Below are positions 3,164 to 47,190 of a stretch of DNA of 57,393 nucleotides, one piece after another. The notes below the pieces were generated by a model. It had not been told where the DNA came from. It saw only the letters and a list, made by a program, of their open reading frames with translations, and searched no databases. This stretch comes from an uncultured Coriobacteriaceae bacterium (GTDB lineage Bacteria > Actinomycetota > Coriobacteriia > Coriobacteriales > Coriobacteriaceae): positions 1 through 57,393 of the forward strand of contig CALUOP010000011.1 of the NCBI GenBank assembly GCA_944322305.1, in the 5' to 3' direction. Within the stretch, counting starts at the first letter, position 1, and every line of letters begins with the position of its first letter. A program made the translations under genes and the position numbers.

Positions 3164-3557
3164 TTCGACAGGTGCAAGGGGCTGGCAACAAAGGGCCCAG
3201 TACGCAAACGGCGCTTGCGCAAACTACTTGGCAGGTACGAGGAACATCACATACCCGGCTTGCTCTGGGCGCATTTTTCTCGGCAGGTGCAGCTCGCGGA
3301 ATGCCTAGGGCATGTTTTTCTCGACAGATGCAGCTGACGGAGCGCCTGTAGCGCCCAGGATTTTGTATCTGCCGAGCAAACCGTGCAGAAAACGGCGAAA
3401 AACCCTCAGGCTCTCCGCACCTGTCGAGAGAAAAGCGCGACGCGAGCCGGGGCGCATTGCCACACAATCCGCAAGGCCACGCCTGCCGAGAAAACGCGCA
3501 GCGCTAGCTAGGACATTGCGCCATACGAATCGCAGGGCCACGCCTGTCGAGAAGAAC
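3164..3557. repeat. Cluster of CTGCCGAGAAAA-type repeats, left copy
   Basis: The 720-bp gap between recN and the small ORF holds seven or more copies of a short motif. Forward copies (CTGYCGAGWRAA, often followed by CGCGCAG) are at 3369-3380, 3421-3434, 3483-3495 and 3544-3557. Inverted copies (TTTTTCTCGRCAG) are at 3274-3286 and 3315-3327, with a partial one at 3164-3176. Copies are usually flanked by TGCA or GCAC. The rest of the gap (2901-3160) shows no gene or promoter that I can support. The same motif recurs at 13371-13834. Confidence 0.75.
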
Positions 3558-3598
3558 GCGCGGACGGCGCGCGAGACGCGCCGCAGCCCCGCCGGCTG

Positions 3599-5227
3599 CT
3601 ACCGCTCCCACTCCGCAAGCAGCATGCGCGCGTGCTCCAGGCTCGCCTCGGACTGCTCGCCCGAAAGCATGCGCGCCACCTCGGCCACGCGCTCATCGCC
3701 CGTCACCTCGGAAAGCACGGTCACCGGGCGCTCGTCTTTGCTGCGCGTCACCACATAGTGGGTCGCGGCGGCCACCGCCACCTGCGCCAGGTGCGTCACC
3801 ACGATGACCTGGTGGGTGCGCGCCAAGTCGGCCAGCACCGCAGCGAGCGAGCGCGCCGTGGCCCCGCCCACGCCGGCATCCACCTCGTCGAACACCAAGG
3901 TGTCGGCCGCGTCGGCCTCGCCCAGCACCACCTTCACGGCAAGCATCACGCGCGAAAGCTCGCCGCCCGAGGCGATCTTTTTCAGCGGCCGCGGCGTCAG
4001 GCCCGAGCCCGAGCGGTACAAAAGCTCGCAGGCGCTGGGGCCCTCGACGGTCCACTTCTCGCGCGGCAGGGGCTTGGCGCTCCACACCAGCTCGGCGCTG
4101 CCCATCTCGAGCCGCACCATCTGGCGCGACACGGCCCGGCAAAACGCCGGCGCCGCGTTGTTGCGCGCGCGGTCGAGCGCCTTGGCCGCCTTCGCAAGCT
4201 CCGCCTCGGCGGCGTCAACGGCGGCGCGGGCGCGCTTCTCGCGCTCGGAGGCGTCGTCCACCACGGAAAGCAGCTCGCTTGCGGCGTCGCGCGCGGCGAA
4301 CACGTCCTCCATGCGCGGGCCGAAGCTGCGCATGAGCCCCCGCAGCGCCGAGAGCCGCTCCTGCATCTGCGCAAGCTCCGCCGGGTCGAAGTCCACCGCC
4401 TCCTGGTAGCTGCGCAGGTCGGCCGCGGCGTCCTCCATGACGATGGCGGCCTCGGCAAGGTTGTCGGCGAACTCTCCCAGCTTGGCGTCGACCGTGCGCA
4501 TGCGTGCCAGCTCCGCGATGGCGCTGTTCACGCCGTCGAGCGCCCCGCCCTCGGCTGAAAGCGCCTCGTGGGCGCTGTAGGCGCATGAGACGAGCGCCTC
4601 GGCGTGTTCGGCGCGCGGAAGCGTCTCCTCGAGCTCCTCCACCTCGCCGGGCTGCGGGTCAACCTCGCCGATGCGCTCCAGCGCAAAGCGAGCCTCCTCG
4701 ACCTTGGCTCCCTTGGTGCGCGCCGCCTCCAGCACGCGCTCAAGCTCGCGGGCCGCAGCACGCGCCGCAGCAAGCTTTCCGCGGTACTCATCGAGCGCCG
4801 GCCCGACCTTCTCGGCCGCCCAGGAGTCGATCATCGCCACATGGTTGGCAGCGGCAAGCAGGCGCTGGTGCTCGTGCTGACCGCACAAGTCGATGGTGGC
4901 GCCCACGCGCTCGGCCAGCTCGCGCACGCTCGCCACGTGTCCGTTGATGCTCACGCGGCTGCGCCCGTCGGCACCCACGCGCCGGCGCACGGCGATGCCC
5001 TCGGCGTCATCCGGCCCCTCGTACACGCGGCCCTCAACGCAGAGATGGTCCTCCCCTTCGCGCACCTGGCCGGCCTCGGCGCGCTCGCCCATCAGAAGCT
5101 TCAGCGCCGAGAGCAAAGCCGTCTTGCCCGCGCCGGTCTCGCCGGTCAGCACGGTGAGGCCGCGCCCCGGCGTGAGCGTTGCCTGGGCGATAAGCGCCAC
5201 GTTCTCTACCTGGATCTCATCAATCAT
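3599..5227 (-). CDS. recN: DNA repair protein RecN
   Basis: A 542-residue SMC-like ATPase that acts early in double-strand-break repair. The Walker A box GETGAGKT is at residues 29-36. A long coiled-coil centre rich in Ala, Glu and Arg follows. The C-terminal half carries the ABC signature SGGELSRVMLAVKVVL and Walker B DTLVFDEVDAGVGG, with the D-loop/H-loop region VIVVTHLAQVA. The length is near the family norm of 550-570. The ATG at 5227 overlaps the end of nadK by eight bases, so translation is probably coupled. It is the last gene of a tlyA-nadK-recN unit, matching the tlyA-(argR)-recN order of Firmicutes; argR is absent here. Confidence 0.96.
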   Translation of the reverse strand: MIDEIQVENVALIAQATLTPGRGLTVLTGETGAGKTALLSALKLLMGERAEAGQVREGEDHLCVEGRVYEGPDDAEGIAVRRRVGADGRSRVSINGHVASVRELAERVGATIDLCGQHEHQRLLAAANHVAMIDSWAAEKVGPALDEYRGKLAAARAAARELERVLEAARTKGAKVEEARFALERIGEVDPQPGEVEELEETLPRAEHAEALVSCAYSAHEALSAEGGALDGVNSAIAELARMRTVDAKLGEFADNLAEAAIVMEDAAADLRSYQEAVDFDPAELAQMQERLSALRGLMRSFGPRMEDVFAARDAASELLSVVDDASEREKRARAAVDAAEAELAKAAKALDRARNNAAPAFCRAVSRQMVRLEMGSAELVWSAKPLPREKWTVEGPSACELLYRSGSGLTPRPLKKIASGGELSRVMLAVKVVLGEADAADTLVFDEVDAGVGGATARSLAAVLADLARTHQVIVVTHLAQVAVAAATHYVVTRSKDERPVTVLSEVTGDERVAEVARMLSGEQSEASLEHARMLLAEWER

Positions 5228-12096: not shown

Positions 12097-12472
12097 GGTT
12101 AACCGCCCTTATCGCATGGAAGAGCTCGGATAGGCGCACCCGCCGCACAAGAATGCCCGATTGACCGCTGTTATGTCAAAGAGAGGCGCGGAAGCAAACG
12201 CTGCGTCGGCGCGGACGCTTAGGTTAACCGCCCTTATCGCATGGAAGGATCCGGTTTCCCGCTTATTCGCACAGAGAGGTTCAGTTAGTCGTTGTTATCG
12301 CATGTGGAAAACGGTTAGTCGCAAAAAAGACCGCCAACTCGCGGATAAACGCGAATTGGCGGTCGTAGGAGCGACTAACATGATGCAAGCAGTCGCAAAA
12401 GCGATCAACGCAGCTCTTTGTCGTTCGAAATCGCGGTCAACCAGTCGCTAAAGGTCGGAACCGCGGCCAACC
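12097..12472. repeat. Head-to-head array of degenerate 30-32 bp repeats around a hairpin (array 1)
   Basis: The gap between efp and the carboxyltransferase operon carries a periodic signal. On the left, reverse-oriented units start with GGTTAACCGC or a variant at 12097, 12128, 12159, 12190 (weak), 12222, 12253, 12283 and 12313, spaced 30-32 bp. In the middle is a hairpin at 12329-12364. On the right, forward units end in GCGACTAAC, GCGATCAAC, GCGGTCAACC and GCGGCCAACC, with AAC at 12379, 12409, 12441 and 12471. Left units are reverse complements of right units. The same family fills 44682-45119 and probably 27573-27846. No coding frame follows the period. Confidence 0.75.
12323..12364 (-). 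terminator. Intrinsic terminator downstream of efp, at the centre of repeat array 1
   Basis: GACCGCCAA at 12329-12337 pairs with TTGGCGGTC at 12356-12364, with extra pairing of CGCG inside. On the minus strand the stem is followed by TTTTTT. It is a textbook terminator for efp, and it also forms the axis about which the 30-bp repeats reverse orientation. A second, imperfect stem (12485-12522) abuts the efp stop. Confidence 0.7.
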
Positions 12473-28793: not shown

Positions 28794-29152
28794 CAACGCG
28801 TGATGCCGACATGGTGCGCCTGCGCTTGTATTTCCCGCATCTAATAACGCTCTACTGGTAACAGCTTCCTCTCAGAAGCCGTTTTCGACCTGTACGGGAA
28901 AAGTTTTGCTCGCAGGCCGTTCTGCAAGGAAGAAAATGCGAGCACGACGCATCTGCCACGTGCGGCTGCAGGCCGCGCCACGGTAAGCTGGGCACCATTT
29001 GGCGCAGCCGAAGGGGCAGCGTGCAACTCCCGGATTTCCGGGGGGGGTTGCGCGCGGCTTGGGAGGCCAGCCGGTCCCTGGACGCCGAACCCGCGGCCAA
29101 CCCGACCCCCGAGAGCCGGGTCCGCAAACGGCCGCGGGGCCGGCGCCTCGGC

Positions 29153-29199
29153 CGTAAGACGAAATGCGCCAAACCAGGTACGGCCTAGTTTGGCGTACG
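29153..29199. repeat. Palindromic element, copy 1 (CGTAAGACG flank)
   Basis: CGTAAGACGAAATG followed by CGCCAAAC, AGG, TACGG, CCT and GTTTGGCG. It is an imperfect palindrome of the family at 29386, 50451, 50591 and 52606. Just to the left (29022-29047) is an ACTCCCGG-type stretch that resembles the palindrome at 44766. Confidence 0.7.
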
Positions 29200-29221
29200 G
29201 CCGCGGCGAACCCGGCACACG

Positions 29222-29348
29222 AAAAATGGATGTCGTTTCGCGCGGGTGCGGCGAGTATGCCGGCCGGGTGTCAGTCGATCTACCTGCGCCTTTCGTAAGA
29301 GACGGGGCGCCTCTACTCGAGACGCCCCTCTAAAACCACATCCATTTT
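29222..29348. repeat. MITE-like segment with 16-bp inverted ends
   Basis: AAAATGGATGTCGTTT at 29223-29238 is matched, inverted with one mismatch, by AAACCACATCCATTTT at 29333-29348. The roughly 95-bp interior contains a stem GGGGCG/CGCCCC near 29304-29327 and no coding frame. It may be a nonautonomous element or a large regulatory hairpin. No target duplication is obvious. The surrounding gap (28794-29459) otherwise holds the two palindromic elements and no gene that I can support. Confidence 0.4.
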
Positions 29349-29385
29349 CGGGGAGGGTGGGAAACCTACCCCATTCCCGCCGTTC

Positions 29386-29430
29386 CGTCTTACGAAATGC
29401 GCCAGATTAGGCACGGCCTAATCTGGCGCA
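29386..29430. repeat. Palindromic element, copy 2 (CGTCTTACG flank)
   Basis: CGTCTTACGAAA then a perfect 15-bp inverted repeat, TGCGCCAGATTAGGC (29398-29412), a 3-base loop, and its complement (29416-29430). It ends 29 bp from the trpS stop and could end trpS transcripts, though no T-run follows. Confidence 0.8.
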
Positions 29431-29459
29431 TCGGGACAGGGCGGCCGGCGTCGACTGGG

Positions 29460-43118: not shown

Positions 43119-44363
43119 TTATCGGCCGCGCAGCACCCGCACGCTTACGGCCAGCTGGCACGCCAGCAGGGCTGCGGCAACAACCCACAGCGCGGGATAG
43201 CCGGCAACGGCGAGAAGCGCGCCGCCCAGCGTGCTGCCCACGCCGCCGCCCGCGAAAACGCCGAAGCCCACGAGCCCCGTGCAGAGGCCCGCCTGCGCGG
43301 GGTCGGCGTCCATGGAAAGCGAGACGAGCGTGGGCTGCACGAGGATGTACCCGAGCCCCAGGCACGCCGCCGCCGCAAGCGCCGGCTGCCACCATCCCGT
43401 CAGCGCCACGAGCACCAGGGCAAGCGCCGCGCACACGCCGGAAACCTCGCCTGCCGCGATCACGCCGCTAAGCCCGCGACGGGCGCCCAGGCTACCGGAA
43501 AGCGCGCCGCCAACCAAGCAGAACACGCCGTAGAGCATCATCACCAAACCCGCTTGCGTGGCGCTGAGCCCGCACCGCTCCGAAAGGAAGGTGCCCATGA
43601 GACCGTAGACGCCCAAGAACAGCACGCCGGTGGTGCAGGCAAGCAGGAACACCGCCCTGCCGGGGCCGAAAAACACCCGCGCCGCGTTGCGCAAAAACGT
43701 CACCGGAGCCGCCGGGGAAAGCGAGCGACCGGCGGCCTTGGAAGCGCGCGGGCAAGGGTTGGGAGACGCTTGCCCCGCCCCGTCTTTCTCGCCCGCGGCG
43801 TGCGCAGGCTCGCGCAGCGTCCACAAAAGCGCCCAGGCCACGAGCGCCAGCGCGCCGAACGAGGCAAACGCCGCGCGCCACCCCACCACGTCGGTGAGGA
43901 TGCCGCCGAGCCCCGCCGAGAGCCCTTGGCCGGTGAACGTGATCCCCATGAGGATGCCCACGGCGCCCGCGCGCCTGGCTGCGCCCACCGTGTCGCCCAC
44001 GAAAGCCTGAGAGACCGAGATAATGCCCGCTGCGAAGCATCCCGTGAGGATACGCGCCGCCACGAGCGCCGGCAACGTCGGCACCGCCGAGCAGGCGAAC
44101 GTGCCCACCGCAAGCCCCAGCACGATAACGCGCAGAAGGCGCAGGCGGCCGAACCGGTCGCCGAGCGAACCGCACACCGGCTGCAGCGCGCCGTAAGGAA
44201 CCAGGTACGCCGTGAGCACGATGGCGGCCGCAGACGGCAGCACGGAAAGCGTCTGGGCGATCGAGGGCAGCGCCGGCGAGACGAACCAGTTGTCCGCCGC
44301 TGAAACCAACCCGCAAAACCCGAGCGCTCCGATAACATGCAGCTCTTTTGGCGAGAAGCGCAT
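43119..44363 (-). CDS. Major facilitator superfamily transporter
   Basis: A 12-helix MFS protein of about 414 residues. The loop 2-3 motif is GSLGDRFGRLRLLRV and a drug-antiporter-like motif C region is MGITFTGQGLSAGLGGIL. The central cytoplasmic loop is long and Pro/Ser-rich (AGEKDGAGQASPNPCPRASK). The profile fits drug/proton exporters but the substrate is unknown. Two starts are close: ATG 44363 with TAAGG four bases upstream, or ATG 44375 directly abutting AAGGGG. A candidate -10 CATACT lies near 44518 on the minus strand. Confidence 0.85.
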   Translation of the reverse strand: MRFSPKELHVIGALGFCGLVSAADNWFVSPALPSIAQTLSVLPSAAAIVLTAYLVPYGALQPVCGSLGDRFGRLRLLRVIVLGLAVGTFACSAVPTLPALVAARILTGCFAAGIISVSQAFVGDTVGAARRAGAVGILMGITFTGQGLSAGLGGILTDVVGWRAAFASFGALALVAWALLWTLREPAHAAGEKDGAGQASPNPCPRASKAAGRSLSPAAPVTFLRNAARVFFGPGRAVFLLACTTGVLFLGVYGLMGTFLSERCGLSATQAGLVMMLYGVFCLVGGALSGSLGARRGLSGVIAAGEVSGVCAALALVLVALTGWWQPALAAAACLGLGYILVQPTLVSLSMDADPAQAGLCTGLVGFGVFAGGGVGSTLGGALLAVAGYPALWVVAAALLACQLAVSVRVLRGR

Positions 44364-44681
44364 ACGCCTTACCATCCCCTTCGATCAGTTGGCCGGCAGA
44401 CACCTCCGCCGCGGACTTCGCGGTGCAGCCCGCCCAGCGCAGGCCGGCCTTGCTGCGGCGCCATCCACACGGACGCGCAGAACTTGGCGTTGACGCTGGC
44501 GCCTGCCAAACCTCAGTATGCCACAGCAGGCTTGTTTCGGAGCGCCTTCTACGTGCGCAGCCGCTTGCCGTTTTGCCACGCATCCCACCCGCCAGCCAGG
44601 CTGCCCCCCTCACACGGAAACGCTCGCATCGCCTCGATTTGACGCCATTTCGTCGGATGTTATTTCGACACCAGGAAGGGC

Positions 44682-45119
44682 GCTTGGTCGTCCAAGCGAC
44701 CTGCAAGGGTGCGGTTGGTCGCGCTTTTGTCGTTGCGGGAACGGTTGGTCGCTCGGACCGCACGCAACTCCCGGAAATTCGGGAGTTAGATGCAGTGTAA
44801 GCGACCAAAAGGGATTTACCTGTCGTTATCGCGATCAACTGGAAGCTTAGATGACGTTGTCGCGAGCAACGGGGCGCTTAGCCGTCGCGAGCGCGGGCAA
44901 CCGAAGCTTAGATGACATTACCGCGGGCAAGCGAATGGACTGCGAGCCGCTGCTGCAATTAACCAGAAGCTTAGATGTCCTGGTCGCGGACAATTGAAGC
45001 CTGGATGTCGCAACCGCGGGCAAAACCGACGCTTAAGTGTTGCGGACGCGGCTAAGCAGACGAATTGCGGGCCACAACTGCGGCCAACAGGAAGCTCCGC
45101 TATCGCGGGTGTGGGCAAG
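44682..45119. repeat. Head-to-head array of degenerate 30-32 bp repeats around a hairpin (array 3, best copy)
   Basis: The 889-bp gap between the MFS gene and the ABC-F gene contains a striking period. Reverse units start GCTTGGTCG (44682), GGTTGGTCGCG (44713) and GGTTGGTCGC (44743). A hairpin AACTCCCG/CGGGAGTT is at 44766-44787. Eleven forward units follow with conserved GCGRNCAA cores whose last A is at 44808, 44838, 44869, 44900, 44930, 44962, 44993, 45023, 45055, 45087 and 45118 (steps of 30-32). Several units begin GAAGCTTAGATG. The rest of the gap shows no gene. Confidence 0.8.
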
Positions 45120-45252
45120 CAGGCAGGGCGCTGGCAGCGAGGTGCGGCTGGGACAGGCGAACGGGCTAGGGGCAACGCAACGCGGCTGGAACGGCCGGAG
45201 CAGTCGAAATGGGCAGGCGGGTTTGAGACGGCATCGCCGTCGCCGCCTGCGG

Positions 45253-47190
45253 CTAGCCCTCCAGGGTTTCCGACAGCTCAAGCCACTCGGTTTCGAGCTC
45301 GTCGAGCGCCTCCTGCGCTGCGTCGACCTTGGCCTGGCCGTCTTCCAGCGCCTGGTAGTTGGTGGGGTCGGCCGCGGCCAGCTCGGCACGCGCCGCCTCT
45401 AGGCGACCGCGCTGCGTCTGCATCTTGCGCTCAACCGACGCCAGCTGCTTCTTCAGCCGGTACTCCTCCTGCCGCGAAAGCTGCGGCCGAGAAGCGCCTG
45501 CGCCGCTCGCACCCGCCGCGCCGCCAGAGCCCGCGGGGGCGCCGGCGGTCCCAGGAGCCGTGCGCGGGCCCGCGCTGTCGCTCTTCTTACCCGCCGCCGC
45601 ATCCCGCGCAGCGGCGTCGCGCTCGTCCAGCAGGCGCAGGTACTCGTCAACCCCGCCGGGCACGTGGCGCAGGTGCCCGTCTATCAGCGCGTACTGGTGG
45701 TCGGTCACGCGCTCCATGAGGTAGCGGTCGTGGCTCACCAGGATGAGGGTGCCCGGCCAGCCGTCGAGTAGGTCCTCCACGATGGCGAGCATATCGGTGT
45801 CCAGGTCGTTGCCGGGCTCGTCCAAGATGAGCACGTTGGGCTCGGCCAAGATGGTGAGCAGAAGCTGCAGGCGGCGGCGCTGCCCACCCGAGAGGTCGCG
45901 CACGCGCGAGAGCAGCTGCTCGCGCGTGAAGCCCAGGCGCTCGAGGAGCTTTTCGGGGCTCGTCTCCTTGCCATCCACCACGTAGGTGCGCTTGTAGCGC
46001 GAGAGAATCTCGCGCAGGGTGTCGTCCATCACCGGTGCGAGCTCGGTAAGCTGCTGCGACAGCGTGCCGAACTTGACCGTCTGACCGATCTTGACCCGCC
46101 CGCGCGTGGGCGCAAGCACGCCCTCCAGCACGCTGAGCAGCGTTGACTTGCCCGCGCCGTTCTCGCCCAGAACGCCGAAGCGGTCCCCCGGGCCGATGAG
46201 CCACGTGATGTCGCGCAGCACCTCGCGCGGCGCGCGCTCCCCCGCCGGCGCCGCACCCTCTGCGCCCGCCGCCGCGCCGACGCCCGAAGCCGCGGGCGCG
46301 TCAAAGGAGACCGACACGTTCTCCAGGTCGATCACCTGCTTGCCCAGGCGCGCCACGGCCAGGCGCTTGAGCTCGAGGGTGTTTCTCACCGGCGGCTCGT
46401 CGGCGATAAGCTCGCGCGCGGCGTCCACGCGGAACTTGGCCTTGGTGGAGCGCGCCTGCGCCCCGCGCGAAAGCCACGCGAGCTCCTTGCGGATCATGTT
46501 CTGGCGGCGCTGCTCGGCCACCGCGGCCTGCCGGTCGCGCTCGACGCGCTGCAAGATGTAGGCGGAGTACCCGCCCTCGAAGGGCTCCACCCGCCCGTCG
46601 TGCACCTCCCACATGTGCTCGCAGACCTCGTCCAAGAACCAGCGGTCGTGCGTCACCACCAGAAGCGCGCCCTGGCCGGGCTGCCAGCGGCTCTTGAGGT
46701 GCCGCGCGAGCCAGGCGATGGCGCGCACGTCCAGGTGGTTGGTGGGCTCGTCGAGCATGAGCACGTCCCAGGTGCCGATGAGCAGGCGCGCCAGGTCGAC
46801 CCGGCGACGCTGGCCGCCCGAGAGCGTGCCCACCGGCGCGTCCCACGGCACGTCGGCGATGAGCCCGGCGATGATGCCGCGGATGCGGGCGCTGGCCGCC
46901 CACTCGTACTCCGGCATGCCGCCCACCACGTTCTCGCCCACCGAGCGCGCGGGGTCCAGGGCGTCCGTCTGCCCCAGCACGCCCACTGCCAAGTCGCGCC
47001 GCCACGTGACGCGCCCCTGGTCGGGCTCCACGGTGCGCGCGAGCACGCCCAGAAGCGACGACTTGCCGTCGCCGTTGCGGCCCACGATGCCTATGCGGTC
47101 GCCCTCGTTCACGCCGAGGGTGACCGCGTCGAACACGTGGCGCGTGGGGTACTCGAGCCCCATGCTGTCGCAGCCTATGAGAATCGCCAT
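45253..47190 (-). CDS. uup: ABC-F family ATPase, Uup-like
   Basis: A 645-residue soluble protein with two ABC domains. First: Walker A GRNGDGKSS, signature LSGGQRRRVDLA, Walker B VLMLDEPTNHLD. Second: GENGAGKST, LSGGQRRRLQLL, VLILDEPGNDLD. The linker between them holds a long charged helix typical of ABC-F. The C-terminal 110 residues are an Ala/Gly linker and a coiled coil (YRLKKQLASVERKMQTQRGRL-type), the DNA-binding feature of Uup. ABC-F proteins act on ribosomes; Uup also influences transposon excision. The ATG at 47190 lies 31 bp downstream of the pepV stop. Confidence 0.88.
   Translation of the reverse strand: MAILIGCDSMGLEYPTRHVFDAVTLGVNEGDRIGIVGRNGDGKSSLLGVLARTVEPDQGRVTWRRDLAVGVLGQTDALDPARSVGENVVGGMPEYEWAASARIRGIIAGLIADVPWDAPVGTLSGGQRRRVDLARLLIGTWDVLMLDEPTNHLDVRAIAWLARHLKSRWQPGQGALLVVTHDRWFLDEVCEHMWEVHDGRVEPFEGGYSAYILQRVERDRQAAVAEQRRQNMIRKELAWLSRGAQARSTKAKFRVDAARELIADEPPVRNTLELKRLAVARLGKQVIDLENVSVSFDAPAASGVGAAAGAEGAAPAGERAPREVLRDITWLIGPGDRFGVLGENGAGKSTLLSVLEGVLAPTRGRVKIGQTVKFGTLSQQLTELAPVMDDTLREILSRYKRTYVVDGKETSPEKLLERLGFTREQLLSRVRDLSGGQRRRLQLLLTILAEPNVLILDEPGNDLDTDMLAIVEDLLDGWPGTLILVSHDRYLMERVTDHQYALIDGHLRHVPGGVDEYLRLLDERDAAARDAAAGKKSDSAGPRTAPGTAGAPAGSGGAAGASGAGASRPQLSRQEEYRLKKQLASVERKMQTQRGRLEAARAELAAADPTNYQALEDGQAKVDAAQEALDELETEWLELSETLEG

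Follow-up and report, generated by a model that had tools for sequence, protein, structure and literature searches.

Helically phased, dyad-centred repeat arrays dispersed through the genome of an uncultured Coriobacteriaceae bacterium

Interspersed repeats of bacteria are usually described by their sequence or by a hairpin, whereas the array family reported here preserves rotational register across hundreds of sites in the genome. To our knowledge, no interspersed repeat family with a helically phased, dyad-centred anatomy is known, and a literature search covering open-access text, with most subscription journals lying outside it, returned no described element of such a layout. The closest described systems include the BOX, RUP and SPRITE repeats of Streptococcus pneumoniae, of which BOX is modular. 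They are small dispersed repeats that, like the present family, have multiplied in a single species and are sparse or missing in its relatives, a species-limited distribution from which the pneumococcal elements were judged parasitic (PMC3049150). These repeats are described by extensive secondary structures, whereas the dyad positions of the array family show no covariation and its sites are helix-phased. REP, BIME and REPIN elements are likewise dispersed intergenic palindromic repeats, occur as inverted pairs and are protein-bound in known cases (PMC2817692, PMC3116915), the REP sequences being palindromes of 20-40 bp (PMC3733652) that are linked to a RAYT gene.

Anatomy of the array between the MFS and ABC-F genes

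The analysed stretch (the window) comprises 57,393 bp of one contig. The array described in the earlier note on this DNA occupies positions 44682-45089, in the gap between genes for an MFS transporter and an ABC-F ATPase. G003 denotes the sister species, and G001 and G002 are congeners.

43119-44375, minus strand: MFS transporter, flanking gene outside the element (NCBIfam scan)
44376-45252, no strand: whole intergenic gap, 877 bp (comparison with G001, G002 and G003)
44682-44767, plus strand: left arm, three units at 44682, 44713 and 44743 (unit matrix scan)
44712-44872, plus strand: 161-bp core common to the dispersed copies, almost gap-free (alignments A5 and A7; models R1 and R2)
44766-44787, no strand: central dyad AACTCCCGGAAATTCGGGAGTT (sequence; conserved in the aligned copies)
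44786-45089, minus strand: right arm, ten units (unit matrix scan; steps of 30-32 bp)
45253-47190, minus strand: ABC-F ATPase, flanking gene outside the element (NCBIfam scan)

Units of the left arm read GGTTGGTCGC-N5-CGACATCTAA on the plus strand and follow one another in steps of 31 and 30 bp, while those of the right arm start at 44786, 44816, 44847, 44878, 44908, 44940, 44971, 45001, 45033 and 45065. The complete step series from left to right is 31, 30, 43 (across the dyad), 30, 31, 31, 30, 32, 31, 30, 32 and 32 bp. Both arms converge on a dyad axis near 44776, and the consensus of the central dyad over the family copies is AACTCCCGGAAATCCGGGAGTT. An earlier note on this DNA had described three reverse units and a central palindrome, AACTCCCG-gaaatt-CGGGAGTT, which agree exactly with the matrix scan and the sequence, and eleven forward units, of which ten were scored and the eleventh, near 45096-45118, fell under the matrix threshold.

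The unit matrix (25 bp) was trained solely on copies outside the window. It detected 13 units in the 877-bp gap. Dinucleotide shuffling of the same gap (1000 shuffles) left 0.35 units on average and never more than 3. Plain autocorrelation of the gap at lag 30-31 reached 0.34 and did not surpass the best shuffle (0.35). As base-by-base autocorrelation stays within the shuffle range, the case for this single array rests on the motif and its spacing.

A dispersed family of oriented, helically phased units

The array belongs to an interspersed repeat family. A first BLAST search of the whole genome returned further copies with 69-75% identity, centred on the palindrome. Once oriented by their GGAAATCC centre, 14 copies (12 from this genome and two from G003) could be aligned over 161 bp almost without gaps. 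Mean identity among aligned copies of the family is ~62%. Comparable arrays elsewhere, for which the earlier note had recommended a search, were found within the same genome, where a sequence-only model gave 171 matches on both strands that merged into about 71 elements on 12 contigs (genome size 2.35 Mb). Two of the additional elements are located in the window.

12097-12472, no strand: second family element, dyad at ~12346 (model and unit scan)
28985-29127, no strand: third family element, GC-rich, ending just past its own dyad (model; repeat comparison)

The former contains plus-strand units at 12097, 12159, 12222, 12283 and 12313 and minus-strand units at 12356, 12386, 12418 and 12448. The latter adjoins a 430-bp repeat common to another locus at 95.6% identity; homology of the window copy of this repeat begins at the array dyad, and the left half is therefore missing. 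The repeat itself (29027-29456) is shared with locus L057 (95.6%) and partly with L103, L063 and L076. At L063, one array lies between two paralogous 1.5-kb stretches (1232-2706 and 3264-4748, 83% identity). A second, near-perfect palindrome family occurs beside some arrays (L059 2775, L064 2821 and L075 2819 in this genome; L115 4221 in G003) and is built from a variable outer stem, an AAC/AAC internal loop, a CCGG stem and a loop of GCCCGATATC or GCCCGTTATC. The first and last 77 bp of the contig (1-77 and 57317-57393) are perfect reverse complements of each other, which probably represents an assembly overlap at a repeat.

Throughout the family, the two-box unit GGTTGGTCGC-N5-CGACATCTAA recurs about every 30 bp as an oriented, non-palindromic site (boxes A and B), the palindrome being confined to the array centre. 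Across 58 stretches of this genome the 25-bp matrix identified 701 units between genes (100 kb examined) and 109 within coding sequence (338 kb), corresponding to 7.0 versus 0.32 units per kb. The median dyad is accompanied by 9 units (5-15), spanning 389 bp, and the polarity is convergent, with 629 of 683 units (92%) within 450 bp oriented towards the dyad. Of the 75 adjacent plus/minus unit pairs, 66 show a dyad spacing of exactly 43 bp.

Successive spacings on the same strand cluster at 30-32, 40-44, 51-55, 61-64 and 71-76 bp, with few at 82-104 bp, and 5 of 518 are off phase; helical register is maintained, as this quantisation indicates. Because core spacings may be inherited with the core, the phasing test was restricted to flank spacings of at least 35 bp, and the 144 flank spacings yielded a phase concentration of 0.79 at a best period near 10.2 bp. 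Local duplication may yield some of the repeated spacings within a locus, an effect limited by counting each distinct spacing once per locus, which still gave a phase concentration of 0.78 at 10.4 bp (n=112); a random-spacing null did not exceed 0.31 in 2000 trials. Site spacing is quantised in whole helical turns, as a phased protein-binding array requires. The genome-wide spacing strongly supports the earlier proposal that the cores share one face of the DNA, and helical phasing across the genome lends similarly strong support to a protein-binding array, albeit with a putative binder. The judgement that the array is neither a CRISPR nor a simple satellite also holds. A CRISPR was rejected, as only short boxes are conserved, their spacing follows helical turns and the units are inverted about a dyad, and the window locus has MFS and ABC-F genes as neighbours instead of cas genes.

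Folded RNA was a further possibility raised in the earlier note. The arms are inverted repeats and the central palindrome can pair, so that the converging arms might form a long hairpin in a transcript. Among 54 copies, however, 74.8% of the pairings were standard pairs compared with 74.2% after within-column partner shuffling, and shuffles reached the observed level in 65 of 500 trials, so that covariation is no higher than column composition gives. An RNA hairpin is unsupported because the paired dyad positions do not covary; the arms match since both carry the same site and not through co-evolution. Furthermore, an Rfam search of the array returned no family above the curated gathering score. 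With stems lacking compensatory changes, a structured RNA family was rejected. The elements also have no fixed orientation relative to genes, and helical-turn spacing is a property of duplex DNA, making the folded-RNA reading extremely improbable.

Distribution, lineage-specific gain and sequence constraint

Among 67 genomes of the family and 397 of the order, elements are confined to this genome and G003, a distribution that a second model, with 40 relatives, also gave. The window genome (G000) contains about 71 elements and G003 contains three, whereas model searches of G001 and G002 found none. The search for arrays in relatives was hence successful for G003 but not for the remaining family and order genomes. 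The sole order-level match outside the genus, in G315, was rejected because it lacks an array and resembles coding sequence. A search of 84,980 species, each represented by one genome, for the exact two-box pattern gave three matches, which were also rejected, being chance-like and without a surrounding unit array. Two of the three G003 copies lie inside blocks that are 94-98% identical to this genome, compared with ~81% at the window locus, which probably reflects recent exchange of these copies. The high-identity blocks are 5-6 kb long (L112 versus L114, and L064 versus L115), and about 150 bp beside the L112 array are present solely in this genome.

The distribution is BOX-like, with many intergenic copies in one species and few or none in relatives. 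Species restriction and absence from order relatives equally fit a parasitic repeat, of BOX or REPIN type, whose own mobiliser or copying process would use the phased sites and whose copies would be useless to the host. The existence of closely related and locally duplicated copies is also in line with such a selfish element. Contrastingly, searches of viral, phage and plasmid collections found no member of the family at the sensitivity of each search, and an origin from phages, plasmids or viruses was rejected on these grounds.

The gain at the window locus resembles insertion, which again fits a selfish repeat. The 877-bp gap there compares with 82 bp (aligned gene ends) in G003 and with about 3 bp from the MFS start to the ABC-F stop in G001 and G002. 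Since the flanking genes nearly abut in the congeners, most of the gap is a lineage-specific gain. At all ten loci with G003-matched flanks and an unshared element (the window locus included), the window genome has the longer gap, as a selfish repeat would predict. With regard to transposon or MITE features, shorter orthologous gaps exist, but divergence of the flanks prevents the exact ends from being placed; no terminal repeats or target duplication, which would favour a selfish repeat, were established. Element positions along the unordered contigs are compatible with random placement, which again suits a selfish repeat and gives no sign of domain-level placement.

RAYT-mobilised REP elements were considered separately. 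The array family has a non-palindromic unit of ~30 bp and a core of >160 bp, unlike the short REP palindromes, and one Y1_Tnp gene each was identified in G000 (L158, G000:C4:265091) and G003 (L159, G003:C1:68235) and none in G001 or G002. This lone REP-type transposase gene of the window genome is flanked by other repeats (TTGGGGACGTG...), with no array element within 1.5 kb, which also speaks against a selfish repeat of REPIN type. Mobilisation by RAYT was rejected, as the transposase is flanked by different repeats and the unit is not a hairpin palindrome. The flanking repeats of the Y1 transposase genes are short, of GGGGACG type, and differ between G000 and G003.

Nearly all copies are intergenic according to our own simple gene caller, with two predicted ORF overlaps. 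Tandem, convergent and divergent gaps account for 41, 15 and 11 copies versus 194, 38 and 36 in the background, about the background proportions, and neighbour-gene orientation at background level argues against a promoter or terminator role. Operator arrays controlling adjacent genes would be in keeping with the location of some copies upstream of genes and with the phased sites, which are typical of cooperative repressors. However, the background proportions of gap types place many copies downstream of both neighbours, and the neighbouring genes are functionally incoherent; we regard operator arrays as very unlikely.

Sequence constraint was assessed in 11 independent close pairs, with conserved sites defined by the other 32 copies. 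Divergence was 0.085 per conserved site versus 0.323 per variable site, a 3.8-fold lower rate of change at the positions that the remaining copies conserve (rho -0.67, p 2e-18). A decaying repeat would be expected to change evenly, whereas the observed rates are uneven between site classes, and the slower change at conserved sites in recent duplicates indicates purifying selection. Copies keep both constraint and phase after duplication, which a non-functional parasite copy would not need, and we consider a selfish repeat without use to the host, the chief alternative reading, rather unlikely.

Proposed binding platform and comparison with known systems

Oriented sites in helical register, convergence on a palindrome, constraint after duplication and indifference to the direction of transcription are the requirements for one protein to assemble cooperatively on duplex DNA. 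We consider it probable, at roughly 60%, that each element offers a putative self-associating, sequence-specific DNA-binding protein a platform on which it binds cooperatively. About nine sites (5-15) per dyad share a helical face and are oriented towards the central palindrome, so that bound protein could build up from the dyad along both arms, and the resulting complex would wrap, bend or stiffen DNA locally or bridge elements. The approximately 70 intergenic addresses would then constitute distributed nucleoprotein nodes on the chromosome. We infer protein binding, oligomerisation of the bound protein and an architectural rather than purely selfish role. A host role in chromosome architecture is our leading reading, and the elements may possibly act as nucleoid anchors, as had been suggested from the sequence.

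More tentatively, the ~70 arrays with roughly 700 sites could represent a lineage-private, sequence-addressed chromosome-organising system, with nodes built by one putative oligomerising protein, possibly a clade-restricted second ParB-like protein. The gene for this second ParB-like protein is located at L173 (G000:C4:194000-204000), while the chromosomal ParB is encoded at C3:302327. A 94%-identical copy is present solely in G003 and absent from G001 and G002, and other relatives, with ~37-44% identity, occur in ten other family genomes. As a candidate binder, the protein is a weak lead, because G000 and G003 are sister species that share many genes and because its gene lies in an element-free stretch that holds only a two-unit array fragment (units 30 bp apart), about 1.4 kb from the gene.

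Should a host protein build complexes on the arrays, a new set of chromosomal addresses would have arisen within a single lineage, and as most of these are missing from the sister species, the origin of chromosome-organising sites would be open to direct testing. Were the family selfish, it would represent a repeat whose spread depends on the helical geometry of DNA.

Several known systems share features with the array family. STAR elements of staphylococci are direct repeats interspersed in intergenic DNA, with expansion and contraction that vary between loci, and the abstract describing them mentions neither dyad-centred organisation nor helical phasing (PMC3532100). Plasmid centromeres (parC, tubC and the parS iterons of pSM19035) are also site arrays that seed a helical nucleoprotein complex (PMC5016525). 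Unlike the array family, with about 70 chromosomal loci and ~30-bp units, they occupy one or few loci per replicon, consist of short repeats and usually lie beside their own par genes. A partition centromere was rejected in view of the about 71 loci and the MFS and ABC-F neighbours at the window locus. Noc sites of Bacillus subtilis resemble the array family in number, with about 70 over the chromosome, and in each seeding a protein complex (PMC4331003), but are discrete palindromes largely missing near the terminus, whereas each present locus is an array, and along the unordered contigs no region was seen to exclude the elements. H-NS at the proV negative regulatory element recognises an AT-rich motif at a single locus and not a dispersed, dyad-centred repeat family, but there too helically phased high-affinity sites are found, which nucleate bridging (PMC5418058).
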